DNA from: Lachnospiraceae bacterium
GTDB taxonomy: Bacteria; Bacillota; Clostridia; Lachnospirales; Lachnospiraceae
Assembly: GCA_017553505.1 (NCBI GenBank)
Contig: JAFZLD010000018.1
Location: 186,001 to 250,000, forward strand
Direction of reading: 5' to 3'
DNA: 64,000 nt
A program made the translations under genes and the position numbers. Positions 13,966-50,371 of this stretch are shown piece after piece (within the stretch, counting starts at the first letter, position 1; each line of letters begins with the position of its first letter). The notes beneath the pieces are model-generated. The model worked only from the letters and a program-made list of their open reading frames with translations, had not been told where the DNA came from and searched no databases.

Positions 13966-15018
13966 GTGGCTGATTATGGGGCTATCAGAAATAAATACTT
14001 GGAGGGCGGCAAAGAGAGCACTTTGGCTCACGTAGAAGAGGTTGCCAATACTGCCGAGTGGCTGGGACGAATGCACGGGTTAGATGTCGATAAGCTACGT
14101 CTTGCGGCGATGCTTCATGATGTGAGCGCTGTTATTTCGCCCGATGAAATGTATAGGATTGCGACGGAGCGCGGCATGGTTATCGACCCGGCGGAGGAGA
14201 AGTATCGGTTTCTTTTGCATCAAAGGATTTCTAAGATAATGGCGAGAGAAGAGTTCGGGGTCACCGACGAGGATGTGCTCAGCGCCATTGAGTGCCATAC
14301 GACACTTCGTAAAGGTGCGAGTGTGTATGATAAAGCGGTGTTTCTGGCTGACAAGATATCCTGGGACAGAGGCGGGGTGCCTCCGTACTACGATGAGTTA
14401 AAGACGCGGGCGGAGAAAGCGCTTGATGAGGCGTGCCTATATTTCATTAAGTATCAATTTGACAATGGGTTGCTTTTGATGCCGCATACGTGGCTGACTG
14501 AGGCTTATGAGGAGCTAAAGGGTATGGGTGATACTAAGGTTTCTTTTCGTAAGGCTACTGCAGAGGATTGTCTTGCACTATCAGAGCTTAAGAAGGCGGT
14601 ATGGAACACGACTTATCAGGGGATATATCCGCAGGAGAGGCTTGACGGATATGATGTTAAGAAGAACGAGGAGATTTTCCGCGGAATCGTGGCGAATTCG
14701 GAGATTGAGTTATATGTGGCGGAGGATGCGGGCGAGATTGTGGGCTTCATGACCGTGGGCAAGCCTTATAGGCTATATGAGGAATACGACCAAGAGGAAG
14801 GGCTTCTTTATATACGCAAGGATTACCAGCGAAAGGGCATCGGCAGGCGTTTTATTGATATCGCCAAGGCCGAGGTTGAGGCGAAGGGTTTTGACAGATT
14901 CGTGCTGTCTGTTAATGCACAGAACACCGGCGCGATTGCTTTTTACACCGCAATGGGCGGCGAGATAGTCCTCGATGACGGTGGACAGAAGCGAATAATG
15001 CATAAAATCGCGAAATAG
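13966..15018 (+). CDS. HD hydrolase - GNAT acetyltransferase fusion
   Basis: A 350-residue two-domain protein. Residues 1-185 resemble the YqeK-type HD phosphohydrolase (diadenosine tetraphosphatase family): HVEEVANTAEWLG, AAMLHDVSA (HD pair), LHQRISKIMA, AIECHTTLRKG, VFLADKISWDRG. Residues 187-350 are a complete GNAT domain (YIRKDYQRKGIGRRFID, NAQNTGAIAFYTAMGG). GTG start after GGGAGAG. The last bases of the gene overlap the first unit of array B. Fusion of these two activities is unusual; a joint substrate is speculation. Confidence 0.88.
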   Translation: MADYGAIRNKYLEGGKESTLAHVEEVANTAEWLGRMHGLDVDKLRLAAMLHDVSAVISPDEMYRIATERGMVIDPAEEKYRFLLHQRISKIMAREEFGVTDEDVLSAIECHTTLRKGASVYDKAVFLADKISWDRGGVPPYYDELKTRAEKALDEACLYFIKYQFDNGLLLMPHTWLTEAYEELKGMGDTKVSFRKATAEDCLALSELKKAVWNTTYQGIYPQERLDGYDVKKNEEIFRGIVANSEIELYVAEDAGEIVGFMTVGKPYRLYEEYDQEEGLLYIRKDYQRKGIGRRFIDIAKAEVEAKGFDRFVLSVNAQNTGAIAFYTAMGGEIVLDDGGQKRIMHKIAK

Positions 15019-15246
15019 CGGAATTTATCCATTGTTTTGGAAGGGCAATTTTGGGCACCAATGCATAAGAAATCGCTTTCCGGCTTTTTTATCCATTGCT
15101 TGCATTCATTATGTTGCGAAAACGGTATTGTGAAATAAGAGGCTGCGGTTCGGGCAGACGGATTTAAGAGGTTTGAGTAGTATTATGTAAACCGGCCAAA
15201 GCAAAAACAATGGATAAAATTTCAAAAATCCGTTTTTTATGCATTG
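14996..15246. repeat. Array B: inverted-word units, word TTATSCATTG
   Basis: Three units with arms CAATGSATAA and TTATSCATTG facing each other: 14996-15034 (left arm TAATGCATAA inside the end of the HD-GNAT gene), 15059-15098 and 15208-15246. Arm starts are 29, 30 and 29 bp apart and the 19-20-bp interiors differ. In each unit one arm has the G form (ATGCAT) and the other the C form (ATCCAT or its complement). The rest of the gap to 15354 shows one partial word near 15278 and nothing else clear. Confidence 0.7.
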
Positions 15247-15354
15247 CTCACTCAAAATCAGACCGTCGAATGGAACGCAATGGTATAGATACGGGAAATA
15301 ATTCACAAAAACACACGACATACGCCCCGGCACCGACAAAAAGAGGAACCAAAT

Positions 15355-15843
15355 ATGAATTTAATACAAATAACCGAGCAACAAGCCCCCACCCTCGCAC
15401 CCCTCGTGGCGGATTTCAGGGTTACGTTGCTATCATATTTAAACATAAAAGCTGAGCCGGACGTAAAGGCGGCGGAAGCAGAGATTAAAGAATTCCTGCA
15501 AGACGGCTACCCAATATTTGCGGCGGAAGAAAACGGCACATACGCGGGCTATGTAGTCTGCAAAGTTGTGGAAGATTGCGTGTGGGTAGAGCACATTTAT
15601 GTGCGTGACGAGTTCAGGCGCAGGGGCGTGGCTACGATGTTGTTTGAGAAGGCGGAAGAAGTCGCAAGGTCAAAGGGCGATGATACCGTATTTAACAATG
15701 TTCATCCCAACAATCAGGGAATGATAGATTTCCTGCGCACCAAGGGGTACACTGTTCTTAACATGATAGAAATCAGAAAGCTCTACAAAGGCGAGCAGCC
15801 GGCCACCACCATTCGCGTCGGCGACAACGTTTTCGACTATTAG
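15355..15843 (+). CDS. GNAT N-acetyltransferase
   Basis: A 162-residue GNAT protein. Beta-4 TYAGYVVCKV, beta-5 WVEHIYVRDEFRRRGVATMLFEKAEE with the canonical R-R-G-V-A acetyl-CoA loop, and NVHPNNQGMIDFLRTKGYTVLN. AGAGGAACC precedes the ATG. First gene downstream of array B, so its promoter would lie within or next to that array. Substrate unknown. Confidence 0.9.
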   Translation: MNLIQITEQQAPTLAPLVADFRVTLLSYLNIKAEPDVKAAEAEIKEFLQDGYPIFAAEENGTYAGYVVCKVVEDCVWVEHIYVRDEFRRRGVATMLFEKAEEVARSKGDDTVFNNVHPNNQGMIDFLRTKGYTVLNMIEIRKLYKGEQPATTIRVGDNVFDY

Positions 15844-15861
15844 GCAAAAAGGAGACAACAC

Positions 15862-16353
15862 ATGCACTTTACATACTGCCCCCACTGTGGGACCAGGCTT
15901 ACTGAAAAAGAAATCGGCGATGAAGGCTTCATTCCCTACTGCGAGCACTGCAACGTGCCGCTCTGGGATATGTTCACCACGAGCATCATTACAGCGGTTG
16001 TGAATGAGCAGGGCGAGGTAGCGCTTCTCAGGCAAAACTACGTATCCACCACCAATTACGTGTGCGTGGCGGGCATCATGAAGCTTGGCGAGTCCGCCGA
16101 GGACACAGTCATCCGCGAGGTCAAAGAAGAAATCGGTCAGGACGTGGAAAAGCTTGAATTCATCAAGAGCTACCCCTACCCGAAGAAAGAAATGCTGATG
16201 TTAGGCTACAAGGCAACGGTGCAAAAGAAAGACTTTCATCTCTCCGGCGAAGTGGATTCCGTGGAATGGGTGAAGCTTGAAGACGCGCCCGACAAGCTCA
16301 GAGAAGGCGGCATCGCCTGGCAGCTGGTTAAGACCATAATAGAACGTTCATAA
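15862..16353 (+). CDS. Nudix hydrolase with N-terminal zinc ribbon
   Basis: A 163-residue protein. Residues 1-35 form a zinc ribbon (YCPHCGTRL ... YCEHCNVPL, four Cys), then a Nudix domain whose box runs from GIMKLGESAEDT through REVKEEIG. The layout resembles the C-terminal part of NudC NADH pyrophosphatases, but the protein is much shorter. AAAGGAGA precedes the ATG. Probably hydrolyses a dinucleotide or NDP derivative. Confidence 0.9.
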   Translation: MHFTYCPHCGTRLTEKEIGDEGFIPYCEHCNVPLWDMFTTSIITAVVNEQGEVALLRQNYVSTTNYVCVAGIMKLGESAEDTVIREVKEEIGQDVEKLEFIKSYPYPKKEMLMLGYKATVQKKDFHLSGEVDSVEWVKLEDAPDKLREGGIAWQLVKTIIERS

Positions 16354-16376
16354 TTCCACCGGGGAGGCACACAATC

Positions 16377-16829
16377 ATGGAAATCACCTACAGAAAACTT
16401 ACAGAAGCAGATCTCGATACATTCATAAGCATGCGCATCACGCAGCTTCGCGAAGAAGGTGCGACAGAAGATATCGACCTTGTGCCCGCTCTGCAGGATT
16501 TTTACAAGCGCCACATGGCAGATGGCACATTCGTATCATGGCTTGCGCTTGACGGCGACAAGATTATCGGCACAAGCGGAATGTCATTTGTGGAAAAACC
16601 CCCGTATTTTGGCTGTCCCAGTGGAAAACTGGGGCTTCTCTCCAGCATGTTCACCAATCCCGACTACCGCCGCATGGGCATTGCCAAAGAACTCCTCCAC
16701 CGCGTAGTGGAAGAAGCCAGAGCCTACGGCTGCGGCGCTGTTCACATCACAGCATCAGACATGGGCGTTAAGCTCTACACAGCCTACGGATTCACTCACA
16801 ACGGCAACTTCATGCAGTACAAATTGTAA
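16377..16829 (+). CDS. GNAT N-acetyltransferase
   Basis: A 150-residue compact GNAT protein: KIIGTSGMSFV (beta-4), LGLLSSMFTNPDYRRMGIAKELLHR with acetyl-CoA loop RRMGIA, then VHITASDMGVKLYTAYGFTHN. Resembles the aminoglycoside/YjcK-type GNATs only in general fold. GGGGAGG before the start. It is followed only 10 bases later by another GNAT gene. Confidence 0.9.
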   Translation: MEITYRKLTEADLDTFISMRITQLREEGATEDIDLVPALQDFYKRHMADGTFVSWLALDGDKIIGTSGMSFVEKPPYFGCPSGKLGLLSSMFTNPDYRRMGIAKELLHRVVEEARAYGCGAVHITASDMGVKLYTAYGFTHNGNFMQYKL

Positions 16830-16839
16830 ACCGAGAAAA

Positions 16840-17367
16840 ATGAAATTAGTATTTCCTGAATTAAAATACAAAGAAAAAGCAACAGAATACATCAATGAAC
16901 TCATCGAGTACGGCTCAGAAATAAACGGAACCGGCGGTCTCGACGGATTTCTGGAAGAGTCCACCTATGAAGCGTGGCTTGAAAAAGTACGCCACGACAT
17001 TGACATAGCTAATGTTGAAAAGCCCAGAGTACCCGCGCTTACATATTTCTATGTGCGAGAAGAAGACGACCGAATAGTCGGAATGATTAACATCCGTCTT
17101 GCCCTCAACGATTTTTTAAAGGAAGAAGGCGGACACATCGGCTATTCCGTGCGCCCTACCGAAAGACGCAAACACTACGCGACCAATATGCTCAAGGCAG
17201 CGGTTGAAGTATGCAACAGAGTAGGCATCAACGAAGTTTTCGTATCCTGTGACAAAGAAAACCCCGCCTCCGCCGGTACCATCAGGAACAACGGCGGCAA
17301 GCTCATTAAAGAGTTCTACAGCGAGACTTTTAAAGAAGTCATTCAGATGTATTCAATCACAAGATAA
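16840..17367 (+). CDS. GNAT N-acetyltransferase
   Basis: A 175-residue GNAT: RIVGMINIRLALNDFL (beta-4), GGHIGYSVRPTERRKHYATNMLKAA with loop RRKHYA, and SCDKENPASAGTIRNNGGKLIKE. Same subfamily as the gene at 11061. The ribosome binding site is weak (CCGAGAAA), so its translation may depend on the preceding gene. Confidence 0.9.
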   Translation: MKLVFPELKYKEKATEYINELIEYGSEINGTGGLDGFLEESTYEAWLEKVRHDIDIANVEKPRVPALTYFYVREEDDRIVGMINIRLALNDFLKEEGGHIGYSVRPTERRKHYATNMLKAAVEVCNRVGINEVFVSCDKENPASAGTIRNNGGKLIKEFYSETFKEVIQMYSITR

Positions 17368-17391
17368 ACTTTAAGGAGAACATCCCAATAT

Positions 17392-17886
17392 ATGTATTAC
17401 AGATTGGCCAAAGAAAGCGATATTAACGCTATCTGCGCTCTTATAACCTCCGCAATCGCGGAAATGGAACGAAACAACATCTATCAATGGGATAACATTT
17501 ATCCTACCAAAGAGGACTTCACAAATGATATCATTAAGAAAACTTTATACGTTGGCACAATCGATGACGACATCGCGGTAGTATACGCAATCAACAAAGA
17601 CGCCGACGAACAGTATGCTAACGGCACTTGGGCATATCCCAACAGCGACTACAGCATCATTCACAGACTTTGCGTCAACCCCAATTATCAGAACCGAGGC
17701 GTGGCAAAAGAAACCCTCAATCACATAGAGACCACCCTCCGCGAGGCAGGAGCAGAGTCCGTCAGACTCGACGTCTTCACCGAGAACCCCTTCGCCCTGA
17801 AACTCTACAGGCGCAACGGATATACAGAAGTCGGCACCGCCCACTGGCGCAAGGGCACTTTCTTTTTGATGGAAAAACATCTGTAA
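17392..17886 (+). CDS. GNAT N-acetyltransferase
   Basis: A 164-residue GNAT: IAVVYAINKDADEQY, SIIHRLCVNPNYQNRGVAKETLNHIE with loop QNRGVA, and RLDVFTENPFALKLYRRNGYTEVG. The MYYRLAKESDINAICALI start is typical of the family. TAAGGAGAA precedes the ATG. Substrate unknown. Confidence 0.9.
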   Translation: MYYRLAKESDINAICALITSAIAEMERNNIYQWDNIYPTKEDFTNDIIKKTLYVGTIDDDIAVVYAINKDADEQYANGTWAYPNSDYSIIHRLCVNPNYQNRGVAKETLNHIETTLREAGAESVRLDVFTENPFALKLYRRNGYTEVGTAHWRKGTFFLMEKHL

Positions 17887-17905
17887 ACGCGAGGTATGAA
17901 TCTAT

Positions 17906-18289
17906 ATGAAAATTGAACATATAGCAATGTACGTTAAGGATTTGGAGGGCACCCGCGACTTCTTCGTTAAGTACTTAGGCGGAACATCCAATTCCGGTTA
18001 TCACAATAAGACCACGGGCTTTCGCTCGTACTTTATAAGCTTCGACGACGGCGCAAGGCTTGAAATCATGAATAAGCCCGAACTCACCGATGCCCCTAAG
18101 GCCGCTAACCGCACGGGCTACATCCACGTGGCTTTTTCGGTGGGCAGCAAGGAGAGGGTCGACAAACTGACAGAAATCTTGCAGCAGGCAGGCTACGAAG
18201 TCTTAAGCGGTCCCCGCACCACGGGCGATGGCTACTACGAAAGCTGCATAGTGGGTATTGAGGACAATATTGTAGAAATTACGGAGTAG
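17906..18289 (+). CDS. VOC (glyoxalase/bleomycin-resistance) family protein
   Basis: A 127-residue single VOC domain with two beta-alpha-beta-beta-beta modules: IEHIAMYVKDLEGTRDFF opens the first (metal His), ARLEIMN carries the Glu, YIHVAFSVGSKERVDKL opens the second (His), and NIVEITE ends with the final Glu. All four metal ligand positions are therefore present. Activity (glyoxalase, dioxygenase or antibiotic binding) cannot be resolved. GCGAGGT is upstream. Confidence 0.9.
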   Translation: MKIEHIAMYVKDLEGTRDFFVKYLGGTSNSGYHNKTTGFRSYFISFDDGARLEIMNKPELTDAPKAANRTGYIHVAFSVGSKERVDKLTEILQQAGYEVLSGPRTTGDGYYESCIVGIEDNIVEITE

Positions 18290-18292
18290 AAT

Positions 18293-18847
18293 ATGGACTA
18301 CAGAATTATATTTTTCAGCATGAATCCCGGCTTTTTTGAAAAAGAACGGATGAATTATATGGACGAGCACGACGTTTATGCGGAGCTTGCGATGGATCTT
18401 CGAAAGACCGGCCCCGTCAAAGTGCCCTTCACACCGCAGGAAGACATCACTTTCGGCTTTTTCCGCGGTGATATCGAAACGGTCAAAGAAGCCGTAGCGA
18501 AGGTGGACCCTAACTGGGTGCAGTATTTTAACGAAGGGAGCAACGTGTTCTGCGGTTTTGACGGAGACAAGATTGTTTCTTTTTGCAGCGTAAGCGACTG
18601 GGGCTTGCACGACGGAGTGCGTGTGGGCGGACCGGGTTGCGTGGGAACATTGCCCGAATACCGTAAGCGCGGCATCGGCCTTGAGATGGTGAGACTTGCG
18701 ACGGAGTATCTTAAGGAGCAGGGCGTGGAGCTTTCCTGGATTCACTTTACGGGCGTGGCGCACTGGTACGAAAAGCTGGGCTACGAGATTGTCCTTAAGT
18801 GGAACCGCTACGGAATAATCGAGGAGAAAAAAGATGAAACTTGTTAA
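18293..18847 (+). CDS. GNAT N-acetyltransferase
   Basis: A 184-residue GNAT of the longer, Eis-like or mycothiol synthase-like type: KIVSFCSVSDW, GGPGCVGTLPEYRKRGIGLEMVRLATE with loop RKRGIG, and SWIHFTGVAHWYEKLGYEIVLKWN. Starts 4 bases after the VOC gene and overlaps the next GNAT gene by 14 bases, so these three are translationally linked. Confidence 0.9.
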   Translation: MDYRIIFFSMNPGFFEKERMNYMDEHDVYAELAMDLRKTGPVKVPFTPQEDITFGFFRGDIETVKEAVAKVDPNWVQYFNEGSNVFCGFDGDKIVSFCSVSDWGLHDGVRVGGPGCVGTLPEYRKRGIGLEMVRLATEYLKEQGVELSWIHFTGVAHWYEKLGYEIVLKWNRYGIIEEKKDETC

Positions 18848-19277
18848 ATTGTCCGTTGACGACAAGGACAGTATCAAAGAACTTTTCACATCTGTTTTCA
18901 CTAAGGCCCCCTGGAACGACGACTGGTCCGATGAAGAGCAGCTCGATGCCTATATTATGGACTTAATCGGGTGCTTCAATTCGCTGTCGCTTGGCTTTAA
19001 AGACGAGAACGGTCTGCAGGCCATAGCCCTCGGACGCATCAAGCATTGGTACAAAAAAACCGAGCTCTTCATAGACGAACTCTGCGTAAGAACCGAGTTG
19101 CAGGGACAGGGCATCGGCGGAAAGTTTATCGAGGCGATTGAGGAGTTTCTGAAGGCTGAAGGCGTGGGTGGAATCTTTCTTTTGACGGACAGGGATATGC
19201 CGGCGTATAACTTCTATAAGAAGCATGGTTTCTATGAGGAAACCGGTAACGTCGCTTTCGGGAAGACCTTTGAATAA
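18834..19277 (+). CDS. GNAT N-acetyltransferase
   Basis: A 147-residue GNAT resembling aminoglycoside 6'-acetyltransferase-like proteins in general layout: ELFIDELCVRTELQGQGIGGKFIEAIEE with loop QGQGIG and DRDMPAYNFYKKHGFYEE. GAGGAGAAAAAAG lies inside the end of the preceding gene. Substrate is not determinable. Confidence 0.9.
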   Translation: MKLVKLSVDDKDSIKELFTSVFTKAPWNDDWSDEEQLDAYIMDLIGCFNSLSLGFKDENGLQAIALGRIKHWYKKTELFIDELCVRTELQGQGIGGKFIEAIEEFLKAEGVGGIFLLTDRDMPAYNFYKKHGFYEETGNVAFGKTFE

Positions 19278-19293
19278 AGAATCGGAGAGAGTT

Positions 19294-19782
19294 ATGAACA
19301 GAGATATGTCAGTGCCCTGCGAAGAGGGCATCATCAATCTTCGCGTTGGAGCGATTATCATGAAGGACGGCAAAATCCTGATGGTGGGTAACGATGTGCG
19401 ACCCGAGTATCTGTATTCAGTCGGCGGGCGTATTAAGTTCGGAGAGCTGGCCAAGGAAGCGGTAGTGCGCGAAGTGTACGAGGAGACCGGCGTGAAAATG
19501 GAGGTCGAGAGGCTTGGGTTCGTGCATGAGAATTATTTTTACGGAGATGCAGAGACTAATTTGGGGAAGCTTATATATGAGATATCGTATTTCTTTTACA
19601 TGAAGGTGCCGGAAGGGTTCGACCCGGGAGAAGGAAGCTTCACGGAGGACGGCGCGACGGAGAAACTTCATTGGATAGATATTGGCGACCCCATTAAATA
19701 TTATCCCGAGTTTTTCAGGGAAGAATTAAAGCATCCGTCGCAGGAAGTTAAGTATTTTATGACAGATGAAAGGAAGAAATGA
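19294..19782 (+). CDS. Nudix hydrolase
   Basis: A 162-residue Nudix protein. The box runs from GGRIKFGELAKEAV through REVYEETGV with all conserved Glu residues. N-terminus MNRDMSVPCEEGIINLRVGAI. ATG 19294 is selected because CGGAGAGA precedes it; an upstream in-frame start would overlap the previous gene. It overlaps the next gene by 4 bases (ATGA). Confidence 0.9.
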   Translation: MNRDMSVPCEEGIINLRVGAIIMKDGKILMVGNDVRPEYLYSVGGRIKFGELAKEAVVREVYEETGVKMEVERLGFVHENYFYGDAETNLGKLIYEISYFFYMKVPEGFDPGEGSFTEDGATEKLHWIDIGDPIKYYPEFFREELKHPSQEVKYFMTDERKK

Positions 19783-20219
19783 AAGAACGAGTTATAGATG
19801 ACGAGATCGGGCTCATTCCCTACTACAGAAACGATGAGGTGTCGCTTCAGTGGTATCAGGACCTTGATGTATGCAAGCAGGTGGACAACAGGGATGAGCC
19901 TTATGACTTGGAACTTTTACATGCAATGTACGACTATCTGTGCGCACATGGCGAATGCTATTATATTGAGTACAAGGGCGTGCTTGTGGGAGACGTGTCT
20001 TTACGCGATAACACGGAGCTGGCGATTGTGGTCTGCAAAGAGTATCAGAACAGGCATATCGGCCGCCGCTGTATAGCCGATATGATTAAGCTCGCACATG
20101 AGAAGGGCATGGAAAAGGTTAGAGCCGAGATTTATTCTTTTAACACACAGAGCAGAGCGATGTTTATGGCAGCAGGCTTTAAACAGGTGGACGAAGAGTG
20201 GTATGAATACGTGCTGTAG
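19779..20219 (+). CDS. GNAT N-acetyltransferase
   Basis: A 146-residue GNAT: VLVGDVSLRDNTELAIVVCKEYQNRHIGRRCIADMIKLA with loop QNRHIG, where His replaces the usual Gly, and AEIYSFNTQSRAMFMAAGFKQV. AAAGGAAG precedes the start. ATGA overlap with the Nudix gene indicates coupled expression. Confidence 0.88.
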   Translation: MKERVIDDEIGLIPYYRNDEVSLQWYQDLDVCKQVDNRDEPYDLELLHAMYDYLCAHGECYYIEYKGVLVGDVSLRDNTELAIVVCKEYQNRHIGRRCIADMIKLAHEKGMEKVRAEIYSFNTQSRAMFMAAGFKQVDEEWYEYVL

Positions 20220-20236
20220 CGCGGGGAGGTATAGGT

Positions 20237-20758
20237 ATGGCATTAGCGACAATATTGGAGACTGTGTTGGATGCGGTAGGTAGCGTGTGGATTGACAAGG
20301 TGGCTTACAGGCTTTTCTGGCGGAAGCGCCTGCATATGGTTGTGGAGCAGACATATGACTGCCCCATGCGGATGATATACAACCCCAAGGACAAGAGCTT
20401 CACGGCGAGCGATCAAGCATCACTGATGCATGAGAGAGGCTTCACCAAGCCCTACGGCTGGATTAAGGAGTTCGGTGACCCGCCCAAGCCTCACAGAGAC
20501 TGCATGCTGATGACGGATCAAGAATACTTTCTCGGCGACGTGGTGAAAGTTAAGGTTATCGGAATGTTTAAGCGCAAGGACCACGACCACAAATTCATCG
20601 TGGTGGAATCTTCGCGCGAGATTAACGATTACTCGGAACTGACCGACTCGGAAAAAGAAGAATTATCGCGCTTCTATCCCCGCATCGGCGAGGGCGAAGG
20701 GTGGTTCGGCAGCAAAGAAGCCGAGAAGTGCATGATTTATGGGCCGAAGGCACTGTAG
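20237..20758 (+). CDS. Divergent inorganic pyrophosphatase-like protein
   Basis: A 173-residue protein. Residues 70-170 follow the pattern of soluble family I pyrophosphatases: FLGDVVKVKVIGMFKRKDHDHKFIVVE (compare GDVIEV.VIG ... D.K.IAV), then ELTDSEKEELSRFYPRIGEGEGWFGSKEA (compare the ...F...YK..EGK...GW... end). The catalytic DxxxD-type Asp cluster is not clearly conserved, so it may bind rather than hydrolyse phosphate compounds. GGGGAGG precedes the start. Identity is inference from pattern; array C follows. Confidence 0.5.
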   Translation: MALATILETVLDAVGSVWIDKVAYRLFWRKRLHMVVEQTYDCPMRMIYNPKDKSFTASDQASLMHERGFTKPYGWIKEFGDPPKPHRDCMLMTDQEYFLGDVVKVKVIGMFKRKDHDHKFIVVESSREINDYSELTDSEKEELSRFYPRIGEGEGWFGSKEAEKCMIYGPKAL

Positions 20759-20801
20759 GCAGGCCGGATTTAGGAGCAAACAGGGCTGCTTTTGCAGAAT
20801 G

Positions 20802-21122
20802 AGCATGCGAGTGGCATTAAGAAGCTATTTCGCATGTCTCCGATTTGAACTGATTTTGATTTATGACATGCATAGCAGAAAGCAGGTTTATTTGGCATGT
20901 CGAATAAATGGCTGAGATTTTAGTGAGTACATGCAAAGACGAAGGTGCGCCCAAGACGCATGTCATTGAAAGCATGCGTAGCATAGAGGGGAGACAATAA
21001 GCATGTTGGTTATAATGTTAGCGCACATGCGAAAAGGAGTTAAAGGCTGCTATGCATGTTCGACGTATAATTCGTTTGTTTTTCAGACATGCAAAAATGT
21101 TATAAGCAACTTTACGCATGTC
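20802..21122. repeat. Array C: six phased 37-bp inverted-word units, word RCATGC/GCATGT
   Basis: The 397-bp gap between the pyrophosphatase-like gene and the next GNAT gene is filled by six units, each NRCATGC at the left and GCATGTY at the right: 20802-20838, 20865-20901, 20928-20964, 20971-21007, 21024-21060, 21086-21122. The CATG cores are exactly 29 bp apart in every unit. Unit starts are spaced 63, 63, 43, 53 and 62 bp, close to 6, 6, 4, 5 and 6 turns of B-DNA. Interiors are mostly purine-rich and not related. No ORF explains it. Confidence 0.9.
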
Positions 21123-21155
21123 ATATATCTTGGCAAAGATAATTAGGAGCACAAA

Positions 21156-21557
21156 ATGTTGGACATAAAGGAATATAAGAATTACAAAGACGACGAAATT
21201 CTCAGCCTATATACCGCTGTCGGCTGGACTGCGTATACGGAGAACCCCGCGGCGCTTAAGGCAGGCTATGAGAATTCTCTGCTGATTCTCGCAGCCTACG
21301 AAGGCGACGAGCTTCAAGGCATCATAAGAGTTGTGGGTGACGGACAGACAATAGTGTTTATTCAAGACATTCTGGTCTTCCCCGACAAGCAGCGTAAAGG
21401 CATCGGAACCGCGCTGATTAAGGCGATTCTTGAACGATATAAAAACGTGCGCCAGATTGAACTGGCAACAGATAACACGCCCAAAACTGTGGAGTTCTAT
21501 AAATCTATGGGATTTCATGAGATGTCCGAATACGGGTGTTGCGGGTTTATGAAATGA
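21156..21557 (+). CDS. GNAT N-acetyltransferase
   Basis: A 133-residue minimal GNAT: ELQGIIRVVGD (beta-4), VFIQDILVFPDKQRKGIGTALIKAILE with loop QRKGIG, and ATDNTPKTVEFYKSMGFHEM. TTAGGAGC precedes the ATG. It is the first gene after array C; promoter signals must lie in or beside the array. Overlaps the next gene by 4 bases. Confidence 0.9.
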   Translation: MLDIKEYKNYKDDEILSLYTAVGWTAYTENPAALKAGYENSLLILAAYEGDELQGIIRVVGDGQTIVFIQDILVFPDKQRKGIGTALIKAILERYKNVRQIELATDNTPKTVEFYKSMGFHEMSEYGCCGFMK

Positions 21558-22177
21558 GAGCAGACGACTATTTAGCGAATCCCTGCGAAGCATCTTCACT
21601 TCCGTTTTGGAAGGCGGAGACCGTACAGATTCCTAAGAATATAAAAGTTATCAGAGATGATGAGTTCAACGTTGAACGATGTGCCGGTAACGATGAAAGA
21701 TACTTTAAACTTATACACGATATGAAGATAGTTGAGAAAACACACCTTTCGGAGCAGTTTGAAGTAGTTAAATGCGGCACGGAATCCTACGTCAACCACA
21801 TAAATGGGTGTTATGTCAAAGAAGGTATCTCGACCGAAGAACTCAAGGAATACAAGAACCGCAGAGTATACGACCCAGATTTATGGATAGCGGTTGCTGA
21901 CAAGGCGACCGGTCAAATCGTGGCCACCGGCATCGCTGAGCTTGATACCCGCATAGGCGAGGGCATTCTTGAGTGGATACAGGTATCGCCTCAGTACCGC
22001 CGCAAGGGACTTGGAAAGTTTGTGGTGCGAGAGCTGCTTTGGCGGATGAAGGACAAGGCTTCTTTTGCCGTGGTATCGGGAAAGGTCGATAGCGAGAGCA
22101 AACCGATGGCACTGTATAGAGCGTGCGGGTTCAAGAACCCTGTGATATGGCATGTGATAACGGAGAAAAATTTATGA
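21554..22177 (+). CDS. GNAT N-acetyltransferase
   Basis: A 207-residue protein with an N-terminal extension (about 1-75) and a GNAT domain: GQIVATGIAELDTRIGEGILEWIQVSPQYRRKGLGKFVVREL with loop RRKGLG, then SGKVDSESKPMALYRACGFKNP. Start 21554 gives an ATGA overlap with the preceding stop, and its own stop overlaps the next start in the same way. Confidence 0.88.
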   Translation: MRADDYLANPCEASSLPFWKAETVQIPKNIKVIRDDEFNVERCAGNDERYFKLIHDMKIVEKTHLSEQFEVVKCGTESYVNHINGCYVKEGISTEELKEYKNRRVYDPDLWIAVADKATGQIVATGIAELDTRIGEGILEWIQVSPQYRRKGLGKFVVRELLWRMKDKASFAVVSGKVDSESKPMALYRACGFKNPVIWHVITEKNL

Positions 22178-22599
22178 AAATCATGGTAAGCGCCTGCCTG
22201 CTTGGTACCAATTGCAAGTACAGCGGCGGCAACAATTATAATGAAAAGGTTATAGAGTTTGTAAAGGGTCACGAGGTGATTCCCGTGTGTCCGGAGGTGG
22301 CGGGCGGACTGCCGACTCCGAGAACGCCTTGCGAGATTGTAAACGGCGTAGTAACGAATGCCGACGGCGAAAGCAAGGATAAGGAATTTCGCGTAGGCGC
22401 AGCAAAATGTCTGGAAATGGCCAAAGAAAAAGAAATCGACCTAGCCATACTTCAGTCGCGAAGCCCTTCATGCGGAGTCAACCAAATCTATGACGGAACC
22501 TTTAGCGGAACACGAATCCCCGGCTCGGGGATATTCGCTGGGCTACTTAAAGAAAACGGTTTTAAAGTAATAGATTTGGAGGACATAGACAAATTATGA
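22174..22599 (+). CDS. DUF523 family protein
   Basis: A 141-residue protein with the DUF523 signature: VSACLLGTNCKYSGGNN at the N-terminus, VCPEVAGGLPTPR, and LQSRSPSCGVNQIYDG with GSGIFAGLL. Conserved cysteines in CLLG..C and SPSCG suggest metal or cluster binding (inference); function is unestablished. ATG 22174 overlaps the previous stop; ATGA overlap with the next gene at the 3' end. Confidence 0.9.
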   Translation: MKIMVSACLLGTNCKYSGGNNYNEKVIEFVKGHEVIPVCPEVAGGLPTPRTPCEIVNGVVTNADGESKDKEFRVGAAKCLEMAKEKEIDLAILQSRSPSCGVNQIYDGTFSGTRIPGSGIFAGLLKENGFKVIDLEDIDKL

Positions 22600-23363
22600 T
22601 AACAGATTCTTTTGACAATAAAACACCTGCCAAGATAAACTTGACAAGAAACGAAAACGCGCCGAAAGCTGACGCGGTAATCCTTACTTTTTCCAACAAG
22701 ATTGAGGAGTTCGTTGCTGCCAATTACGTCTGCGAAAAGGTTGGCGAATTGTGGATGGCTACGGGAATGACGCCGGTTTATCTCATCAATTATAACGGCA
22801 AAAAAATCGGCTTCTACAGAACCTACGTCGGCGCGCCCGCGTGCGTTGCGACGGTGGAAGAGGTGTTGCAGATACTGGATACCAATAAAGTAGTTCACTT
22901 CGGCGGCGCAGGATGCCTCAACAAAGAAATCGCGCGAGGCAAGGTCATGGTGCCGACCGATGCATACAGAGACGAAGGCACCTCTTATCACTACGCGCCC
23001 GCTTCGGACTACATCAAGGTTAAGAATTCAGATGTCGTTGAGGCGTTTATGAAGGAGAATAAGCTTCCTTACGTGCTCGGCAAGACTTGGTCGACGGATG
23101 CTTTTTACAGAGAGACTGAGGGAAATTTTGAGAAGCGCAAGACGGACGGCTGCATCTCCGTTGAAATGGAAGGCGCGGCTGTGCAGGCGATGTGCGATTT
23201 CAGAGGCGTAGAGCTTTACATGTTCTTTACGGGCGGAGATTTGCTCGATGCGCCCGAATGGACACAGAGGCGCGAGAAGAATCAGGTCAAAGGTACTCAG
23301 CACGACGTAGGTCATTTCGACATCGCACTTGAACTTGCGGCGTACGTGGCCGACAGAGCTTAA
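22596..23363 (+). CDS. Nucleoside phosphorylase family protein
   Basis: A 255-residue PNP_UDP_1-type enzyme, which splits a nucleoside N-glycosidic bond with phosphate or water. Seen: VVHFGGAGCLNKEIARGKVMVPTDAYRDEGTS (phosphate and base contacts), and ISVEMEGAAVQAMCDFRGVEL, the ribose-binding MEGAA motif near residue 190. The N-terminal IEEFVAANYVCEKVGE is typical of uridine phosphorylase-like members. Exact substrate is unknown. Translationally coupled to DUF523. Confidence 0.88.
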   Translation: MITDSFDNKTPAKINLTRNENAPKADAVILTFSNKIEEFVAANYVCEKVGELWMATGMTPVYLINYNGKKIGFYRTYVGAPACVATVEEVLQILDTNKVVHFGGAGCLNKEIARGKVMVPTDAYRDEGTSYHYAPASDYIKVKNSDVVEAFMKENKLPYVLGKTWSTDAFYRETEGNFEKRKTDGCISVEMEGAAVQAMCDFRGVELYMFFTGGDLLDAPEWTQRREKNQVKGTQHDVGHFDIALELAAYVADRA

Positions 23364-23390
23364 GAAATTTAGCAGTATTAGGAGGTTACA

Positions 23391-23963
23391 ATGTATTATC
23401 ACGCATCATCCGTGGCAGGCATCAAGGTGCTGGAGCCGAGGGTTTCCAATCACAATGTACCGTTGATTTATCTGTCCGAAAAACGCGAGAATGTGTTAGT
23501 ATATTTAAGCAACGCTGTTGAGAAATATTGCAAGGATACGGGCTTTGAATACGCCGGTGTCTGGAAGAAGTGGGGGCCGTACGGATTTAACAAAGACGGT
23601 CGTCTGCGACTGGAGGAATATTATCCTAACGCGCTTGAGATGACATACAAGGGTGTGTCGGGTTACATTTACAGCGCAGAGAACGTTGTCGACTCGGGCT
23701 TCGAACTTCAGATTCCCGACGCTGTTACAAGCAGTGAATCGGTAGAGGTTGTCGGAGTTGAATTCGTGCCGGATGCTTATGAAGCTATACTGGCGGCCGA
23801 GCGCGAAGGACTCATCACCATAATGTGCTACGAAGAAATGCCCGAGCGCATGCGGGAGTGGAATGTGAGAACCATTCGCGAAGAGTACGAAGAGGCGACA
23901 GATCACCCCGAATACAGGCATTTTCTCAAAGGCAATTTTACAGAAATATTAAAGGATTTATAG
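23391..23963 (+). CDS. Hypothetical protein, conserved-looking
   Basis: A 190-residue soluble protein starting MYYHASSVAGIKVLEPRVSN, followed by VPLIYLSEKRENVLVYLSN. The YYHAS...LEP...YLS arrangement is reminiscent of ADP-ribosyltransferase/2'-phosphotransferase-like folds, but I cannot assign it. The C-terminus carries EEATDHPEYRHFLKG. Strong RBS TAGGAGGTT. Starts 28 bases after the phosphorylase gene. Confidence 0.65.
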   Translation: MYYHASSVAGIKVLEPRVSNHNVPLIYLSEKRENVLVYLSNAVEKYCKDTGFEYAGVWKKWGPYGFNKDGRLRLEEYYPNALEMTYKGVSGYIYSAENVVDSGFELQIPDAVTSSESVEVVGVEFVPDAYEAILAAEREGLITIMCYEEMPERMREWNVRTIREEYEEATDHPEYRHFLKGNFTEILKDL

Positions 23964-23966
23964 AGA

Positions 23967-24479
23967 ATGGCAGAAATAAAAATTGAACCTTTCGACATAA
24001 AATACTTGTCGGATTATTATAACGAGTTTGATGCAGAGATTACCAAATACCAGTGGCCCGACCCCTTTGAAAGCATCGATGATGCTAAGGAACTCTTGCA
24101 GGAATTCATCGACGAGATGGGTCGCGACGAGACGATCTTTCTTTCGGTGCTATCTGAGACAGGGGAATTCATGGGAAGCGTTGAAGTTCACGGCCTCGAC
24201 GAAGACTGTCCCGAGCTCGGTGTATGGATTAAGAAGTCCGAATGGGGCAAAGGCTACGCCTATCAGGCACTGAAAGCCGCACTCGATATTGCAATGAGTA
24301 AGTACGGCAAGACCGAGTTCTTTTACGAAGCGGACACGCGAAACGTGGGCAGCAGGAAACTGCTTGATAAGTTCAAGGATGAATACGACATCGAAGCGCA
24401 AGCAGCCGAAGCACTCACAACCGATTCGGGCAAGGAACTGGAACTGCAAGGATTCATACTTACTTTGAAAGAAGGCTAA
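23967..24479 (+). CDS. GNAT N-acetyltransferase, RimJ/RimL-like
   Basis: A 170-residue GNAT: FMGSVEVHGLDEDCPELGVWIKKSEWGKGYAYQALKAA with loop WGKGYA, and EADTRNVGSRKLLDKF. The C-terminal 30 residues differ from the family norm. Only 4 bases separate it from the preceding gene. Substrate unknown. Confidence 0.85.
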   Translation: MAEIKIEPFDIKYLSDYYNEFDAEITKYQWPDPFESIDDAKELLQEFIDEMGRDETIFLSVLSETGEFMGSVEVHGLDEDCPELGVWIKKSEWGKGYAYQALKAALDIAMSKYGKTEFFYEADTRNVGSRKLLDKFKDEYDIEAQAAEALTTDSGKELELQGFILTLKEG

Positions 24480-42488: not shown

Positions 42489-42517
42489 GGCGAGGCATGT
42501 GTGCCTCGCCTTTTTAT
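42489..42517. terminator. Bidirectional terminator between peptide gene and regulator
   Basis: Perfect 9-bp stem GGCGAGGCA/TGCCTCGCC, loop TGTG, followed by TTTTTAT on the plus strand; it overlaps the regulator's stop region, so it may serve both convergent genes. Confidence 0.85.
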
Positions 42518-44403
42518 AACTCTGTATTAAAATCCTTTTTGATTTCGGAGGCAAGGTATTTGCCTCTTTCATCATTCCCTGTAAGATTGAAGAAACCAAT
42601 AGAAATATAGGCATACTTTATCATATTCTTGTAATCTTTTATTTCTCCGTAGGCTTGTGATAGATAGAACAAATAGTCACCGACTTCAGCAAGGTTTTTT
42701 CTGACGAATTCTTCTTCCAATTCTGAATAGTCATTTATGATACCTTTGTAATCTGCCACATTATATAAGTATCTAAAATGGATTTTTATTGAAGTTAATA
42801 AAGCATTATTCAAAAAAGAAGGTGTAATAAAGGGTTCTTTTGAGTAGGCACACAGTGCGTCGTTTATTCTTCTTGCAGTATTGAAATCCTGTCTTTTAAT
42901 ACAATTTATAGTAATGCTGTTAAGTATGGTTATTTCAACCCATGAAAATCGGTAATTAGACATTTTTTCAAATGAGAAGTTTGGCATGGATATTTTCAGA
43001 GCATCAAAAAGAGCCTTACATTGACTTTCTGATGAAATATTTTTTATGTTGTCGAATAATATGCCAAGTTGTTTTACGGAGGGGACATTTGAACTTATAG
43101 CTGTTTTAATTAATGAGTCCATATCCTGTGAAGATTTCTTGCCGCGAATGTGCTCTGCTATCAGAAAACTTTTTATATCACTGTACAATGACTCATGGGA
43201 ATTTCCAAAAAAAACAAAATCTCTTTCAGAATATCCTAATCGGTTAAGTAAGGAGCCTGCAAGATAAATTCCGGGCTCTTGCATAAGATTTTCTATTTTT
43301 GATAATTTGGAAATACTGCAGATGCCGTCACTCAGGCGACTTAGAGTAATCCTTTGGTCCTCGCGGATGTTTTTAATTAATGAACCTATTGTTAATGCAT
43401 CGGTGGAATATATGACTTTGTCAATAGGAGTAGTGTCATCTTCCGCAGGAAAAGCAAGCTTTGGAAAAGTATATCGTCTAGGAATATCAATACCTGTAAA
43501 AGTGTCCGAAAGACCGCGTTCTCGTAACATGATAAGCAAATCTGATATATAGCCACATTCCATAAATGAAGCATAAGACAAAAGATAAAATAGTTTTTTG
43601 TCATGACAATCTATACCCGTAAAAGAATCGTTAATAATCTTTAATAGTTTAGTTTCTATTTTTAGTGTGGCAAAACTATATTCATTTACAAGTGATAATG
43701 CATAATCGGAATATTCTTTAGCTTCTGAGTAATTCTTTTGTATAAAGAATAATTTGGACTGAGTGTATGTTTCAAGAAGTTTAAGATAGGCAATGTATTT
43801 ATCGAGATGATTATACCGATCCGTTGATGCACGCATGTAATCAATAAGTTTCTGTGCTTCTTTGATGGCGCCGATATTGATATAAATATTGGCGGTTAAA
43901 AAAACTATTTCATAATCAACTGAAGTTGGGTGGAAATCAAAGAAATCCCATGATGAGAAAGAAGGATGGAGGACGTGTATGGCATCCATCAAGGTTTTAA
44001 GTAAGTAATCGTAATCGCAATTATAAGTAAGGTATAGGGTTAGACAATATAGATAAATGGCTTCCTGATAATGAAATCGACTGTTTCCAAAATTTAGCGC
44101 TTTAAGTTGCTTAATTTCGCTATACGCAGAAGCAAGACATTTGTTATTGAGGTATAACCGCACATTTTTAAGCATAGTGAATGCGTCGAAGTCTTTGCGG
44201 CTGTTGAATATGGGATATACTTCAAACTCAGCTCCCATCTTTTGCATGAGCATTCTGAACATGGCGGAACTGATTCCTAGCTTTCCGGTTTCAATGTAAC
44301 TCAGAGTTTTGGGAGAGCAGATTCCGTCAGCCAATTGTTCCTGAGTCAAATTGGCCTTCATACGAGCAGCTTTAATTATGGCTCCGGCATATCGAATGCT
44401 CAT
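42514..44403 (-). CDS. Transcriptional regulator with two HTH domains and TPR-like repeats
   Basis: A 629-residue protein. Residues 1-60 are an XRE-type HTH (AARMKANLTQEQLADGICSP, KTLSYIETGKLGIS). A second HTH appears at about 340-400 (NIREDQRITLSRLSDGICSI, SKLSKIENLMQEPG). Each HTH is followed by 200 or more residues of helical, Tyr/Leu-rich TPR-like sequence, so the protein looks like two Rgg/RRNPP-type regulators joined head to tail. Such TPR domains bind small peptides. GGAGGG precedes the ATG. Divergent from the RiPP operon, which it probably controls. Confidence 0.8.
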   Translation of the reverse strand: MSIRYAGAIIKAARMKANLTQEQLADGICSPKTLSYIETGKLGISSAMFRMLMQKMGAEFEVYPIFNSRKDFDAFTMLKNVRLYLNNKCLASAYSEIKQLKALNFGNSRFHYQEAIYLYCLTLYLTYNCDYDYLLKTLMDAIHVLHPSFSSWDFFDFHPTSVDYEIVFLTANIYINIGAIKEAQKLIDYMRASTDRYNHLDKYIAYLKLLETYTQSKLFFIQKNYSEAKEYSDYALSLVNEYSFATLKIETKLLKIINDSFTGIDCHDKKLFYLLSYASFMECGYISDLLIMLRERGLSDTFTGIDIPRRYTFPKLAFPAEDDTTPIDKVIYSTDALTIGSLIKNIREDQRITLSRLSDGICSISKLSKIENLMQEPGIYLAGSLLNRLGYSERDFVFFGNSHESLYSDIKSFLIAEHIRGKKSSQDMDSLIKTAISSNVPSVKQLGILFDNIKNISSESQCKALFDALKISMPNFSFEKMSNYRFSWVEITILNSITINCIKRQDFNTARRINDALCAYSKEPFITPSFLNNALLTSIKIHFRYLYNVADYKGIINDYSELEEEFVRKNLAEVGDYLFYLSQAYGEIKDYKNMIKYAYISIGFFNLTGNDERGKYLASEIKKDFNTEL

Positions 44404-44500
44404 ACAATCCCTCCAAAAGATCTTTTTAGTTATAATAGCATGATTTTTGTGGAAAAAAAAGGATGTTTTGCATCAAAAGAGCAGGATTCTCAAATAATTT

Positions 44501-44523
44501 GGAAATAATAGTTTCCATATAAT
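44501..44523 (+). promoter_or_regulatory. Palindrome and -10 box in front of the RiPP operon
   Basis: GGAAATAATAGTTTCC (44501-44516) is an imperfect inverted repeat immediately followed by TATAAT (44518-44523). No -35 is visible at normal spacing, which fits an activator-dependent promoter with the palindrome as binding site. It lies in the 157-bp divergent region next to the regulator gene. Confidence 0.5.
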
Positions 44524-44560
44524 GGATTCACAATGGGTTTTTGGCATGCTAAGGTTTTAA

Positions 44561-45556
44561 ATGTTAGACGAAACTGATAAGGTAAGGGAATACACTGCTA
44601 TGATTGTGCGAGCATTTACAGATTTTTGGCTTGATTGTTACAGTACAATGCTCTTTTCACTCCTCGTTTCTACCATAGAGATTGATAAGGCTTGCTTGTA
44701 CTTAAATAATTACACATATAGATTGGCAGATATAGCAGATTCTGCAGTGAATGGTGTTAGATATGGAGTGCAGTCGTACATGGACGCATCTGGAATTGAG
44801 CGAAATCTTTTGCATGAAGGCGAAACCATTTATTTAAATACTGTAGATGACCCAGTAGCCGAAATCAAAAAAAGAATCGATAGCGGAAAGATTGTAATGG
44901 CCGGAGTAGATTTGTTCTATTGGGTGAATGAGACTTTTCACTATGGTAAGAACCATGTTCTTCATTATTCGCTGGTCTTTTCGTATGACGAAACTGCTAA
45001 GGAATTGATTGTTTTGGAAACAGGGGAGTCAGGAAATAGGGAGTATAGAGTTACATATGAACAAGCCGCGGTAGCGATGAAAGCATACGATGATTATTCT
45101 AAAGCATACAGGGTGTCTGCCGAATCGCAGAGTTTTAGAGCCGACAAGGAAGTCATTATGACCAATGCAAAAAAAATAATTGAGTCCATAGACCTGGTAT
45201 TGGAACAAGATGAGAAAATATTGAACACAGAAGAACTTAACGTAGGTGGAATTCTGTACGTAAATGATATGGTTCAGACACATATGTTCAATATGTACAA
45301 TCGGGCTAAAGTAAATGGCTTGCTTTTTAAATATTTGCATTTAGACGAGGTACATGATGAATACGATTTTTGCGGTAGATTTAAGCAATTAGAAGAACAA
45401 TTTGACTTGTTAAAGAATCAATGTATTTTTAATGGGTGCAAGGGCAGGGTCGAGGGCTGGCTACCTATAGTTAAGGCTAAATTGATAGAAAACCTAAAGA
45501 TTGAAAGAGGCATATGGCAAAATTATTTGCTTTTAGAAAAGGCAAGCCGTAATTAA
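44561..45556 (+). CDS. BtrH-like papain-fold protein (putative acyltransferase/peptidase)
   Basis: A 331-residue protein. The arrangement Cys 26 in LDCYSTMLFSLL, then IDSGKIVMAGVDLFYWVNE and KNHVLHYSLVFSYDE (His 132/135), resembles the BtrH N-terminal family, whose founding member moves an acyl group from a carrier protein to an amine. A long helical C-terminal part (about 190-331) follows. First gene of the RiPP operon. Given the carrier protein at 55366, a transferase role is attractive, but the similarity is only at pattern level. Confidence 0.5.
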   Translation: MLDETDKVREYTAMIVRAFTDFWLDCYSTMLFSLLVSTIEIDKACLYLNNYTYRLADIADSAVNGVRYGVQSYMDASGIERNLLHEGETIYLNTVDDPVAEIKKRIDSGKIVMAGVDLFYWVNETFHYGKNHVLHYSLVFSYDETAKELIVLETGESGNREYRVTYEQAAVAMKAYDDYSKAYRVSAESQSFRADKEVIMTNAKKIIESIDLVLEQDEKILNTEELNVGGILYVNDMVQTHMFNMYNRAKVNGLLFKYLHLDEVHDEYDFCGRFKQLEEQFDLLKNQCIFNGCKGRVEGWLPIVKAKLIENLKIERGIWQNYLLLEKASRN

Positions 45557-45576
45557 TAACAGATAGGAGAGTAAAA

Positions 45577-46962
45577 ATGGAAGATTTGAGATCAGTTCAT
45601 TGGGATATTACAAGGAAATGTAATCTAAGATGCAAGCACTGTTACAACGCCGAAAAGTACTTTAATCCGAATTCGGATTCATATATCGAAGAAGAAATGA
45701 GCCTTGAGCAGTGCAAGCATACTGTAGACAATTTTGCAAATGCAGGATTTGAGCACATTCACTTTTTGGGTGGAGAACCTTTGGCATCGCCGTATTTGTT
45801 TGATGTTATTGAGTATGCTAAGGAAAAATACAATATGTGTATAACAATCAATTCGAATGCATGCCTTCTTACAGAAAGCATTTGCAGAAAACTGATTGAG
45901 TTAAAGGTTGAGCAGTATGCAGCAAGCTTGGATGGGTGCAGTGCTTTGGTTAACGATTCAATACGTGGAAGCGGTACATTTGAAAAAGTGCTGGAAAATA
46001 TGAAGATGCTTAATAGTATAAAAACGGAATATCCGCAGAAAATGGAGACAGTCTTTGTATTTACACTTACTAAAAAGAATATAGGAGATCTTAAGCTTCT
46101 TCCTAAAGTTGCCGAGGAAGCCGGTGTGGATTTAATGGTACTTACAACCTTTATCGAAAGCGGAAACGGTAGAGAGCATAAAGAAGAGTTTGCTATGGGG
46201 TATATAGAACTTTGCGATGCGATAGAAACGATGGTTTCAAAGGAATTGCTTCAGCATTCTGTTCCGTTACAAATAGACATGCGCCCCAGATTCTGTGATT
46301 ACTTGGCAAGCAGATATATGGCGCCGATTATATATAATTCAAAAAATAGTTTATGTTGTGCCGGAGAAAAAATCTGGTATCTTGAAGCAAATGGTGATGC
46401 ACACCCTTGTCTTGTGTTTCAACTTGAGGCAGGAAAGAAAGCACTTAAGGAAAATGCATACATCAAAGAGAAGATGTCTGTATTGGATAAGACAATCAGC
46501 GAAATAGAAAATTCCCAATATTGGAAAACATTTCTTTCGAAAAAACATGCATTTAATGCGTCCAAGATATCTACTTGCACAGGCTGTATTTACCTCGATG
46601 ATTGCGAACCTTGCTTTTTGGAATACGGAGATTATAACCGACCTGTAATCGAATGTGAATGGACTAAACAAAGAGAAAAAAGTTTGTATGATGACATTAA
46701 GGAAAAAACTTATACTCTCTCTTCCAATGTCGATTACAAAGAAGAGACGGGGAAAATCGCTATAGACAACAATTTGGTTATGGAACTTGATAATGAAGTC
46801 AGTTCGGATTTTTTGGACAAAATATGTGAATTCGGCAAAGTAGAGAGCGCACTAAAAGAGCTTGAAAAAGAATATGCGGTTGATAGTGAACGCTTGAAGT
46901 ATGATTTGGCGGTATTGGTTATGAACCTGATAAACAATGACATTTTGAAAGAGGTGGTGTGA
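45577..46962 (+). CDS. Radical SAM-SPASM peptide-modifying enzyme with C-terminal RRE-like domain
   Basis: A 461-residue maturase. Cys 15/19/22 in TRKCNLRCKHCYN hold the SAM-binding [4Fe-4S] cluster; HFLGGEPL is the GGEP motif. The SPASM region has CCAGEKIWYLEANGDAHPC, then CTGCIYLDDCEPC and VIEC for auxiliary clusters. Residues about 385-461 look like a PqqD/RRE winged helix (LDKICEFGKVESALKELEKEY, VMNLINNDILKEVV). It would recognise and modify the precursor at 48380. Product chemistry (thioether or C-C link) unknown. Confidence 0.9.
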   Translation: MEDLRSVHWDITRKCNLRCKHCYNAEKYFNPNSDSYIEEEMSLEQCKHTVDNFANAGFEHIHFLGGEPLASPYLFDVIEYAKEKYNMCITINSNACLLTESICRKLIELKVEQYAASLDGCSALVNDSIRGSGTFEKVLENMKMLNSIKTEYPQKMETVFVFTLTKKNIGDLKLLPKVAEEAGVDLMVLTTFIESGNGREHKEEFAMGYIELCDAIETMVSKELLQHSVPLQIDMRPRFCDYLASRYMAPIIYNSKNSLCCAGEKIWYLEANGDAHPCLVFQLEAGKKALKENAYIKEKMSVLDKTISEIENSQYWKTFLSKKHAFNASKISTCTGCIYLDDCEPCFLEYGDYNRPVIECEWTKQREKSLYDDIKEKTYTLSSNVDYKEETGKIAIDNNLVMELDNEVSSDFLDKICEFGKVESALKELEKEYAVDSERLKYDLAVLVMNLINNDILKEVV

Positions 46963-46963
46963 T

Positions 46964-47227: not shown

Positions 47228-47283
47228 TGGATTTAAGAATGGAAACCATAACCGAATATACCGAAGTGAGAAAAAATGAATAA
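47227..47283 (+). CDS. Possible 18-codon coupling ORF
   Basis: A tiny ORF (MDLRMETITEYTEVRKNE) starts on the PqqD stop (TAATG) and ends 8 bases inside the next radical SAM gene. It may pass ribosomes to that gene, which has a weak ribosome binding site (GAAGTGAGAAAAA), or be a chance frame. No cysteine and no leader-like motif, so a precursor role is unlikely. Confidence 0.25.
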   Translation: MDLRMETITEYTEVRKNE

Positions 47284-48358: not shown

Positions 48359-48379
48359 AAAACAGGAAAGGAGAAAGAT

Positions 48380-48496: not shown

Positions 48497-48512
48497 TTGA
48501 CGAATTCATGGG

Positions 48513-48542: not shown

Positions 48543-48583
48543 CTGCATGGAGCAAATTAGAGAGGATATTGAGAATAAGTAGG

Positions 48584-49546: not shown

Positions 49547-49547
49547 G

Positions 49548-50366: not shown

Positions 50367-50371
50367 CTGAA

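Follow-up and report, generated by a model that had tools for sequence, protein, structure and literature searches.

The window analysed here is a stretch of 64,000 nucleotides from a Lachnospiraceae bacterium (GenBank assembly GCA_017553505.1, contig JAFZLD010000018.1), which carries between two of its genes an array of short inverted words with strict spacing. The 397-bp gap that follows the stop codon of the upstream gene contains 12 CATG cores, and all 12 fall into six pairs, each exactly 29 bp apart. These pairs define six units of the pattern RCATGC-N23-GCATGT, with the left arm RCATGC and the right arm GCATGT present in every unit. The array spans positions 20803-21121 of the window, and its features are listed below with the distances between units counted from CATG to CATG.

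20237..20758, + strand: gene upstream of the array, inorganic-pyrophosphatase-like
20770..20778 and 21143-21151, no strand: copies of the 9-bp direct repeat TTAGGAGCA around the array, from the comparison of the flanks
20803..20837, no strand: unit 1, GCATGC-N23-GCATGT
20866..20900, no strand: unit 2, ACATGC-N23-GCATGT, 34 bp after unit 1
20929..20963, no strand: unit 3, ACATGC-N23-GCATGT, 34 bp after unit 2
20972..21006, no strand: unit 4, GCATGC-N23-GCATGT, 14 bp after unit 3
21025..21059, no strand: unit 5, ACATGC-N23-GCATGT, 24 bp after unit 4
21087..21121, no strand: unit 6, ACATGC-N23-GCATGT, 33 bp after unit 5
21156..21557, + strand: gene downstream of the array, GNAT acetyltransferase, with its start codon 34 bp past the last arm

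The unit starts (20803, 20866, 20929, 20972, 21025 and 21087) are separated by steps of 63, 63, 43, 53 and 62 bp. The six inverted-word pairs with exact 29-bp spacing had been reported in the original prediction, and they are borne out by the pattern search and by the reading of the sequence. Shuffled sequence, which the prediction had named as the comparison to make, never gave similar numbers of equal CATG pairs. The relaxed pattern RCATG-N25-CATGY occurs six times in the window, as against a shuffle mean of 0.22 and a maximum of 2, and none of 100 shuffles reached six. Dinucleotide shuffles of the gap produced at most two equal spacings in 2000 runs, compared with the six observed, and random placement of 12 CATG words gave at least six equal neighbouring gaps in none of 20,000 runs. 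These three tests, together with a reversed-pattern control that has no occurrence in the same genome, rule out a chance origin of the lattice.

A search of the whole genome (G000; 3.13 Mb in 28 contigs) revealed 17 exact occurrences of RCATGCN23GCATGY, all of which lie within four clusters, so that the array of the window recurs at three more loci.

Contig 13, ~100.1 kb: C13 array (L011), 3 exact units
Contig 19, ~62.8-63.1 kb: C19 array (L012), 5 exact units
Contig 22, 206.8 kb: window array, 6 exact units
Contig 22, ~307.3 kb: C22b array (L013), 3 exact units

Reading the lattice onward from the exact units adds five units with altered arms in the same register, for a total of 22 units in three arrays of six and one, C22b, of four. 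The divergent gaps between consecutive units are 34, 34, 14, 24 and 33 bp in the window array, 34, 34, 14, 34 and 34 bp in C13, 34, 44, 14, 34 and 34 bp in C19, and 34, 34 and 14 bp in C22b. A single 14-bp gap is present in each of the four arrays, always after the third unit. One layout, 34-34-14-34-34, accounts for all four arrays with three deviations (-10, +10 and -1 bp) and two units lost or absent in C22b, and two of the three deviations are of about one helical turn.

The arrays are not all independent in sequence. Units 3-6 of C13 resemble the reversed C22b array, with 87 of 156 positions outside the arms identical (the mean of all array comparisons is a fraction of 0.33). The resemblance is clearest in the 28-bp gaps, identical at 20/28 and 17/28 positions (mean 9.1); the interior cores are identical at 7, 8, 3 and 11 of 17 positions (mean 4.8). 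The arms of the same units agree at 44 of 48 positions in a by-eye count, compared with the 87 of 156 of their surroundings, so that arms and spacing persisted while the C13 and C22b copies diverged. Interiors 1 and 4 of C22b are identical at 12 of 17 positions, against the same mean of 4.8, and some duplication within that array is therefore likely. The earlier statement that the interiors of the window array are unrelated thus holds, but some interiors of the other arrays are related. No clear signal of a whole-array palindrome was obtained when each array was compared with its own reverse.

The 44 half-sites, placed in a common orientation, yield the consensus ACATGCRWA. The core positions are nearly invariant among the 44 arms (C 44, A 44, T 41, G 43, C 41), and the preference continues on the inner side of the arm (R 38, W 42, A 33), which indicates that the half-site is asymmetric and points inward. 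Since inverted arms are also complementary, the units could in principle act as hairpins. Pairing in register reaches 82.8%, compared with at most 64.9% with slid partners, a necessary outcome of inverted arms. At arm positions 7-9, the 82.8% of paired cells compares with a shuffled mean of 85.6%, and hence there is no excess pairing across the unit. The covariation score of the units lies below the shuffled mean, with 488 of 500 shuffles scoring as high or higher. Folding of the stretch is mildly better than that of shuffles (z of -2.05 as RNA and -2.47 as DNA), and the stretch has no match in Rfam at gathering scores. The lack of cross-pairing, the mild fold, and the lack of an Rfam match together favour double-stranded DNA that is read by a protein. 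The computed fold also contains a 13-bp perfect inverted match, longer than an arm, between the left side of unit 2 (20866-20878) and the right side of unit 5 (21047-21059).

The distribution of the arrays in related genomes is narrow. In a genus sample of 18 genomes, many of them incomplete, more than one exact unit was found in only G000 and Lachnospiraceae bacterium YSD2013 (G013, whose matches are identical to those of the YSD2013 genome, G065); five others have one each, and none of the other 16 has a second exact unit. Single N23 units elsewhere (L014-L017 and L028-L030, including those of G019 and G030) have no neighbouring unit in the stretch examined and are taken as chance. In a family sample of 397 genomes, to which YSD2013 does not belong, G000 was the sole match to a two-unit pattern with three mismatches.

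YSD2013 has the C13 and C19 arrays in common with G000, with spacing unchanged. Besides G000 itself, it is the only one of the 18 genus genomes with the genes that flank the window array; at that locus the flanks are 92-93% identical, the genes are just 16-18 bp apart and the array is absent, which implies either a gain of the array in one lineage or its loss from the other. At the C22b locus of YSD2013, ~1.9 kb is missing. The comparison with relatives that had been proposed therefore gave a divided answer: the spacing is intact at two other loci, and the array at the window locus itself is not conserved.

All four arrays sit between co-directional genes, and the distance from the end of the array to the likely next start codon is about 17-56 bp in each case. 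Downstream of C13 lies a gene for a tautomerase of the PptA family, whose start is taken as the ATG 37 bp past the array. The gene that follows C19 encodes a 270-residue protein without a Pfam or NCBIfam match and may start at a TTG at 23 bp or an ATG at 56 bp. C22b, like the window array, precedes a GNAT gene; the likely start is 17 bp past the last arm, and an earlier ATG falls within the arm itself. The genes upstream of the arrays are pyrophosphatase-like or encode a 2'-5' RNA ligase, an ABC transporter and a GNAT protein. The window array itself lies within a run of small co-directional genes (window positions 13966-24479), many of which are GNAT acetyltransferase-like, with Nudix- and glyoxalase-like genes between them; these assignments were made by eye, three of them against Pfam.

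Direct observation covers the lattice, its half-site, the occurrence at four loci, the retention of two of these in a relative, and the lack of a hairpin constraint. From the words and their spacing we infer, with moderate confidence, that the arrays act as a cooperative protein-binding platform on double-stranded DNA. In this reading, proteins would bind the double-stranded stretch as a discrete, non-coding array of ~320 bp, and each unit would be one operator. An operator would pair two asymmetric half-sites in inverted orientation, ACATGCRWA and the mirror image of this word, with their CATG cores 29 bp apart. One symmetric long-span complex, either a dimer whose heads are widely separated or a dimer of dimers, would occupy each unit. 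Neighbouring complexes would be spaced by nearly whole helical turns, which would let as many as six bind cooperatively on one face of the DNA. The one-face binding array suggested in the original prediction is supported by the fixed 29-bp spacing, by gaps whose changes mostly amount to a helical turn, and by an asymmetric half-site that is kept independently on both sides. Because all arrays lie between co-directional genes at ~17-56 bp before a likely start, control of the downstream gene, probably repression or silencing, is the likeliest role. If this account is true, and a single protein recognises both words of a unit across 29 bp and packs in helical phase along six units, it would form a bacterial nucleoprotein platform whose unusually strict geometry can be read off the sequence alone. 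With four loci, a clear half-site consensus and a relative without two of the arrays, the idea lends itself to direct testing.

Several results weigh against a binding platform that controls the next gene. No binding protein was found, and no gene that flanks any array is a regulator; the nearest regulator-like gene encodes an XRE/GyrI-like protein ~2 kb beyond the C19 array. Sigma-70-like sites are near the shuffle expectation (3 vs 1.2 in the window array, and 2 vs 2.7, 1 vs 2.0 and 0 vs 1.2 in the others). The window array is missing in YSD2013 although its flanking genes are kept. Between the two species, the arms of C13 and C19 differ at 3/144 positions and the other array positions at 28/526. 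With the spacing unchanged, this comparison also speaks for the platform, but the difference is small and by itself no proof of the proposed selection on arms and spacing. In addition, isolated operators, which a normal regulator should have, do not stand out beyond the arrays. A search with the 9-bp half-sites that allowed up to three mismatches gave 31 matches in G000, 21 of them in arrays and 10 elsewhere, compared with 14 for a control pattern; with up to two mismatches, 17 of 18 matches were in arrays. The corresponding search of YSD2013 at up to three mismatches gave 20 matches, of which 11 belong to arrays and 9 do not, compared with 13 for the control. Near-consensus sites outside the arrays thus do not exceed the control, so that good units are confined to arrays in both genomes, unlike those of an ordinary transcription-factor regulon.

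The same confinement is compatible with an unlikely alternative, in which the arrays are non-autonomous mobile elements, either similar to miniature inverted-repeat transposable elements or remnants of transposon ends, that were inserted between genes and whose internal repeats are transposase-binding sites. Such an origin is consistent with the dispersal of the arrays over four places, with the absence of two of them in YSD2013, and with the diverged relationship of C13 and C22b. The direct repeat TTAGGAGCA around the window array, of a length reached in 0.006 of shuffles, is possibly a target-site duplication or possibly a chance match that resembles a ribosome-binding site. However, TTAGGAGCA is not present at the YSD2013 window site, and flanking direct repeats at the other three arrays are not beyond chance. 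No terminal inverted repeats were detected, the longest inverted match of the 60-bp flanks being 5-6 bp in all four arrays. By eye, the C22b junction in YSD2013 resembles a deletion of 1.9 kb and not an empty site. The conservation of the arms after the copies had diverged also counts against mobility.

Nor do transposase genes lead to the arrays, as no 29-bp CATG pairs surround the IS200-type transposase genes at the four loci that were read. The gene, of 160 residues, is present in one copy in G000 (L062) and has several matches in YSD2013 (L063, L066 and L067), with no link to an array; Y1_Tnp matches among the 18 genus genomes number one in G000, eight in G013 (some partial), one in G017 and one in G005. 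REPINs, which are inverted REP doublets associated with RAYT transposases, are extragenic pairs of inverted words with characteristic distances (PMC3116915), which the present arrays resemble, but REPINs have conserved ends of 16 bp, show compensatory changes and number hundreds of doublets. The arrays have arms of 6-9 bp, no covariation, and just 17 exact units in four places. Membership of the REPIN/RAYT family is rejected on the lack of compensatory changes and on copy number, and a REPIN or IS200 link is disfavoured, the genome having an IS200-type gene but no 29-bp CATG pair near it. A phage or plasmid origin was likewise discarded: plasmids gave no match, phages gave two matches at E=4, and viral contigs contained no exact tandem units. 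Promoters and terminators were discarded too, as promoter-like sites stay near the numbers in shuffles and terminator-like sites number 1 vs 0.6 expected from shuffles in the window array, 1 vs 0.5 in C19, 0 vs 0.4 in C22b and 4 vs 0.5 in C13, where two of the four are formed by arms.

A centromere-like or chromosome-organising site, where a large nucleoprotein complex would start to form on the array in the way that ParB of plasmid F assembles on sopC, is quite improbable. The restriction of units to arrays, the few copies per genome, and the dyad-symmetric, helically phased layout of 34-34-14-34-34 would fit such a site. In contrast, the four copies are at scattered loci, each shortly before a gene, and 16 of the 18 genus genomes lack a second exact unit. 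ParB was not among the flanking genes examined, the rest of the genome not having been searched for it. The half-sites 29 bp apart also differ from the 16-bp palindromes of ParB sites; the sopC/parS-F locus consists of 16-bp inverted repeats within tandem repeats (PMC6238139), whereas the present arrays have split half-sites, mostly unrelated interiors and four scattered loci.

The 14-bp gap after the third unit invites a further explanation, which is very improbable: a site-specific recombination platform, an idea also among the candidates of the original prediction, in which the central GCATGT-N8-RCATGC is the core and the outer units are accessory sites. Many tyrosine recombinase cores consist of half-sites around an 8-bp spacer, and all four arrays place an 8-bp spacer between inverted arms at this point. 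However, the spacer sequence differs among arrays and there is no recombinase among the flanking genes. The same central element contains the spacing of the PadR operator, ATGT-N8-ACAT; unlike that operator, the arrays have N8 in one gap each, with N18, N27, N28 or N38 in the others, and their fixed distance is 29 bp. A multi-hairpin RNA leader with variable loops, also raised in the original prediction, is barely credible, as its complementary arms, somewhat better fold and in-register pairing are set against arm pairing and covariation no better than in shuffles and the lack of an Rfam match, and fixed 23-nt loops with 10-bp steps would have no obvious RNA reason.

The proposed binding platform is not assigned to a known family. 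Its nearest counterparts in working would be long-span two-headed operators, such as those of NikR, and centromere arrays such as sopC. A CRISPR array is excluded, as it needs identical repeats of ~24-48 bp with spacers and the conserved words here are 6-9 bp long and form inverted pairs. A tetramer that carries two ribbon-helix-helix heads binds the NikR-type operator GTATGA-N16-TCATAC. Like the present units, this operator has a pair of inverted 6-bp words a long, fixed distance apart, which are read by separated heads of one complex (PMC7055735). The operator differs in its words and in its word-to-word distance of 22 bp, compared with 29 bp here, where the units form arrays of four to six and the protein is only putative. 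Among the matches listed in open-licence literature, no description of the lattice was found.

Beyond the genus, a scan of a species collection for two exact tandem units matched nine stretches. Six of these come from five Arthrobacter genomes and one from YSD2013; the other two, L020 and L025, are look-alikes made of tandem repeats with a different build. The second look-alike, on a Bacteroides contig (L025 2399-2606), is a palindrome, GACATGCGCATGTC, repeated at 23- or 46-bp steps, with the same arms and no interior. The Arthrobacter arrays consist of GGACATGCYC/GRGCATGTCC-like pairs 29 bp apart (L027 5886-6866, L021 3549-3703 and L024 44-382), and in two species (L021 and L024) the array lies upstream of a gene that by eye resembles that of an aspartate kinase. 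In the five genomes, which were chosen by the scan for this very pattern, 22 of 44 ACATGC...GCATGT pairs are at N23 when the spacer may vary over 8-38 bp, as counted from coordinates. Without the 12 units of the selecting arrays, 10 of 32 remain at N23, where an even spread over the 31 spacings would give ~1; in G000, 13 of 16 such pairs are at N23. The Arthrobacter divergent gaps are mostly 22-23 and 31-34 bp, with some of 39-46 bp. Since copies of one dispersed repeat are not independent, this peak is suggestive only; it may reflect a shared binding geometry or a coincidence of a large scan. If it is not a coincidence, the spacing would indicate that such elements form a broader class. A doubtful extension, drawn from the Arthrobacter peak and from the G343 lattice described next, is that an as yet unrecognised class of long-span DNA-binding protein leaves the 29-bp inverted lattice as its footprint and forms helically phased arrays in unrelated bacteria while the word is free to change.

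A lattice with another word is present in G343, a member of the same family, where the reversed-pattern control matched nine times, compared with no match in the remaining genomes of the 397. This genome harbors dispersed intergenic 63-bp tandem repeats (L045-L053) with TGTACG-N23-CGTACA in a 29/34 lattice. The repeats are similar tandem copies with, by eye, a long hairpin across the 28-bp gap, and the shared 29/34 lattice is possibly a coincidence.

Elsewhere in the window, positions 42514-57054 encode, by eye, an Rgg-like helix-turn-helix regulator followed by several radical-SAM-like proteins, two ABC transporters, a signal-peptidase-like protein and an AMP-binding-like protein, a set that looks like a peptide natural-product cluster.
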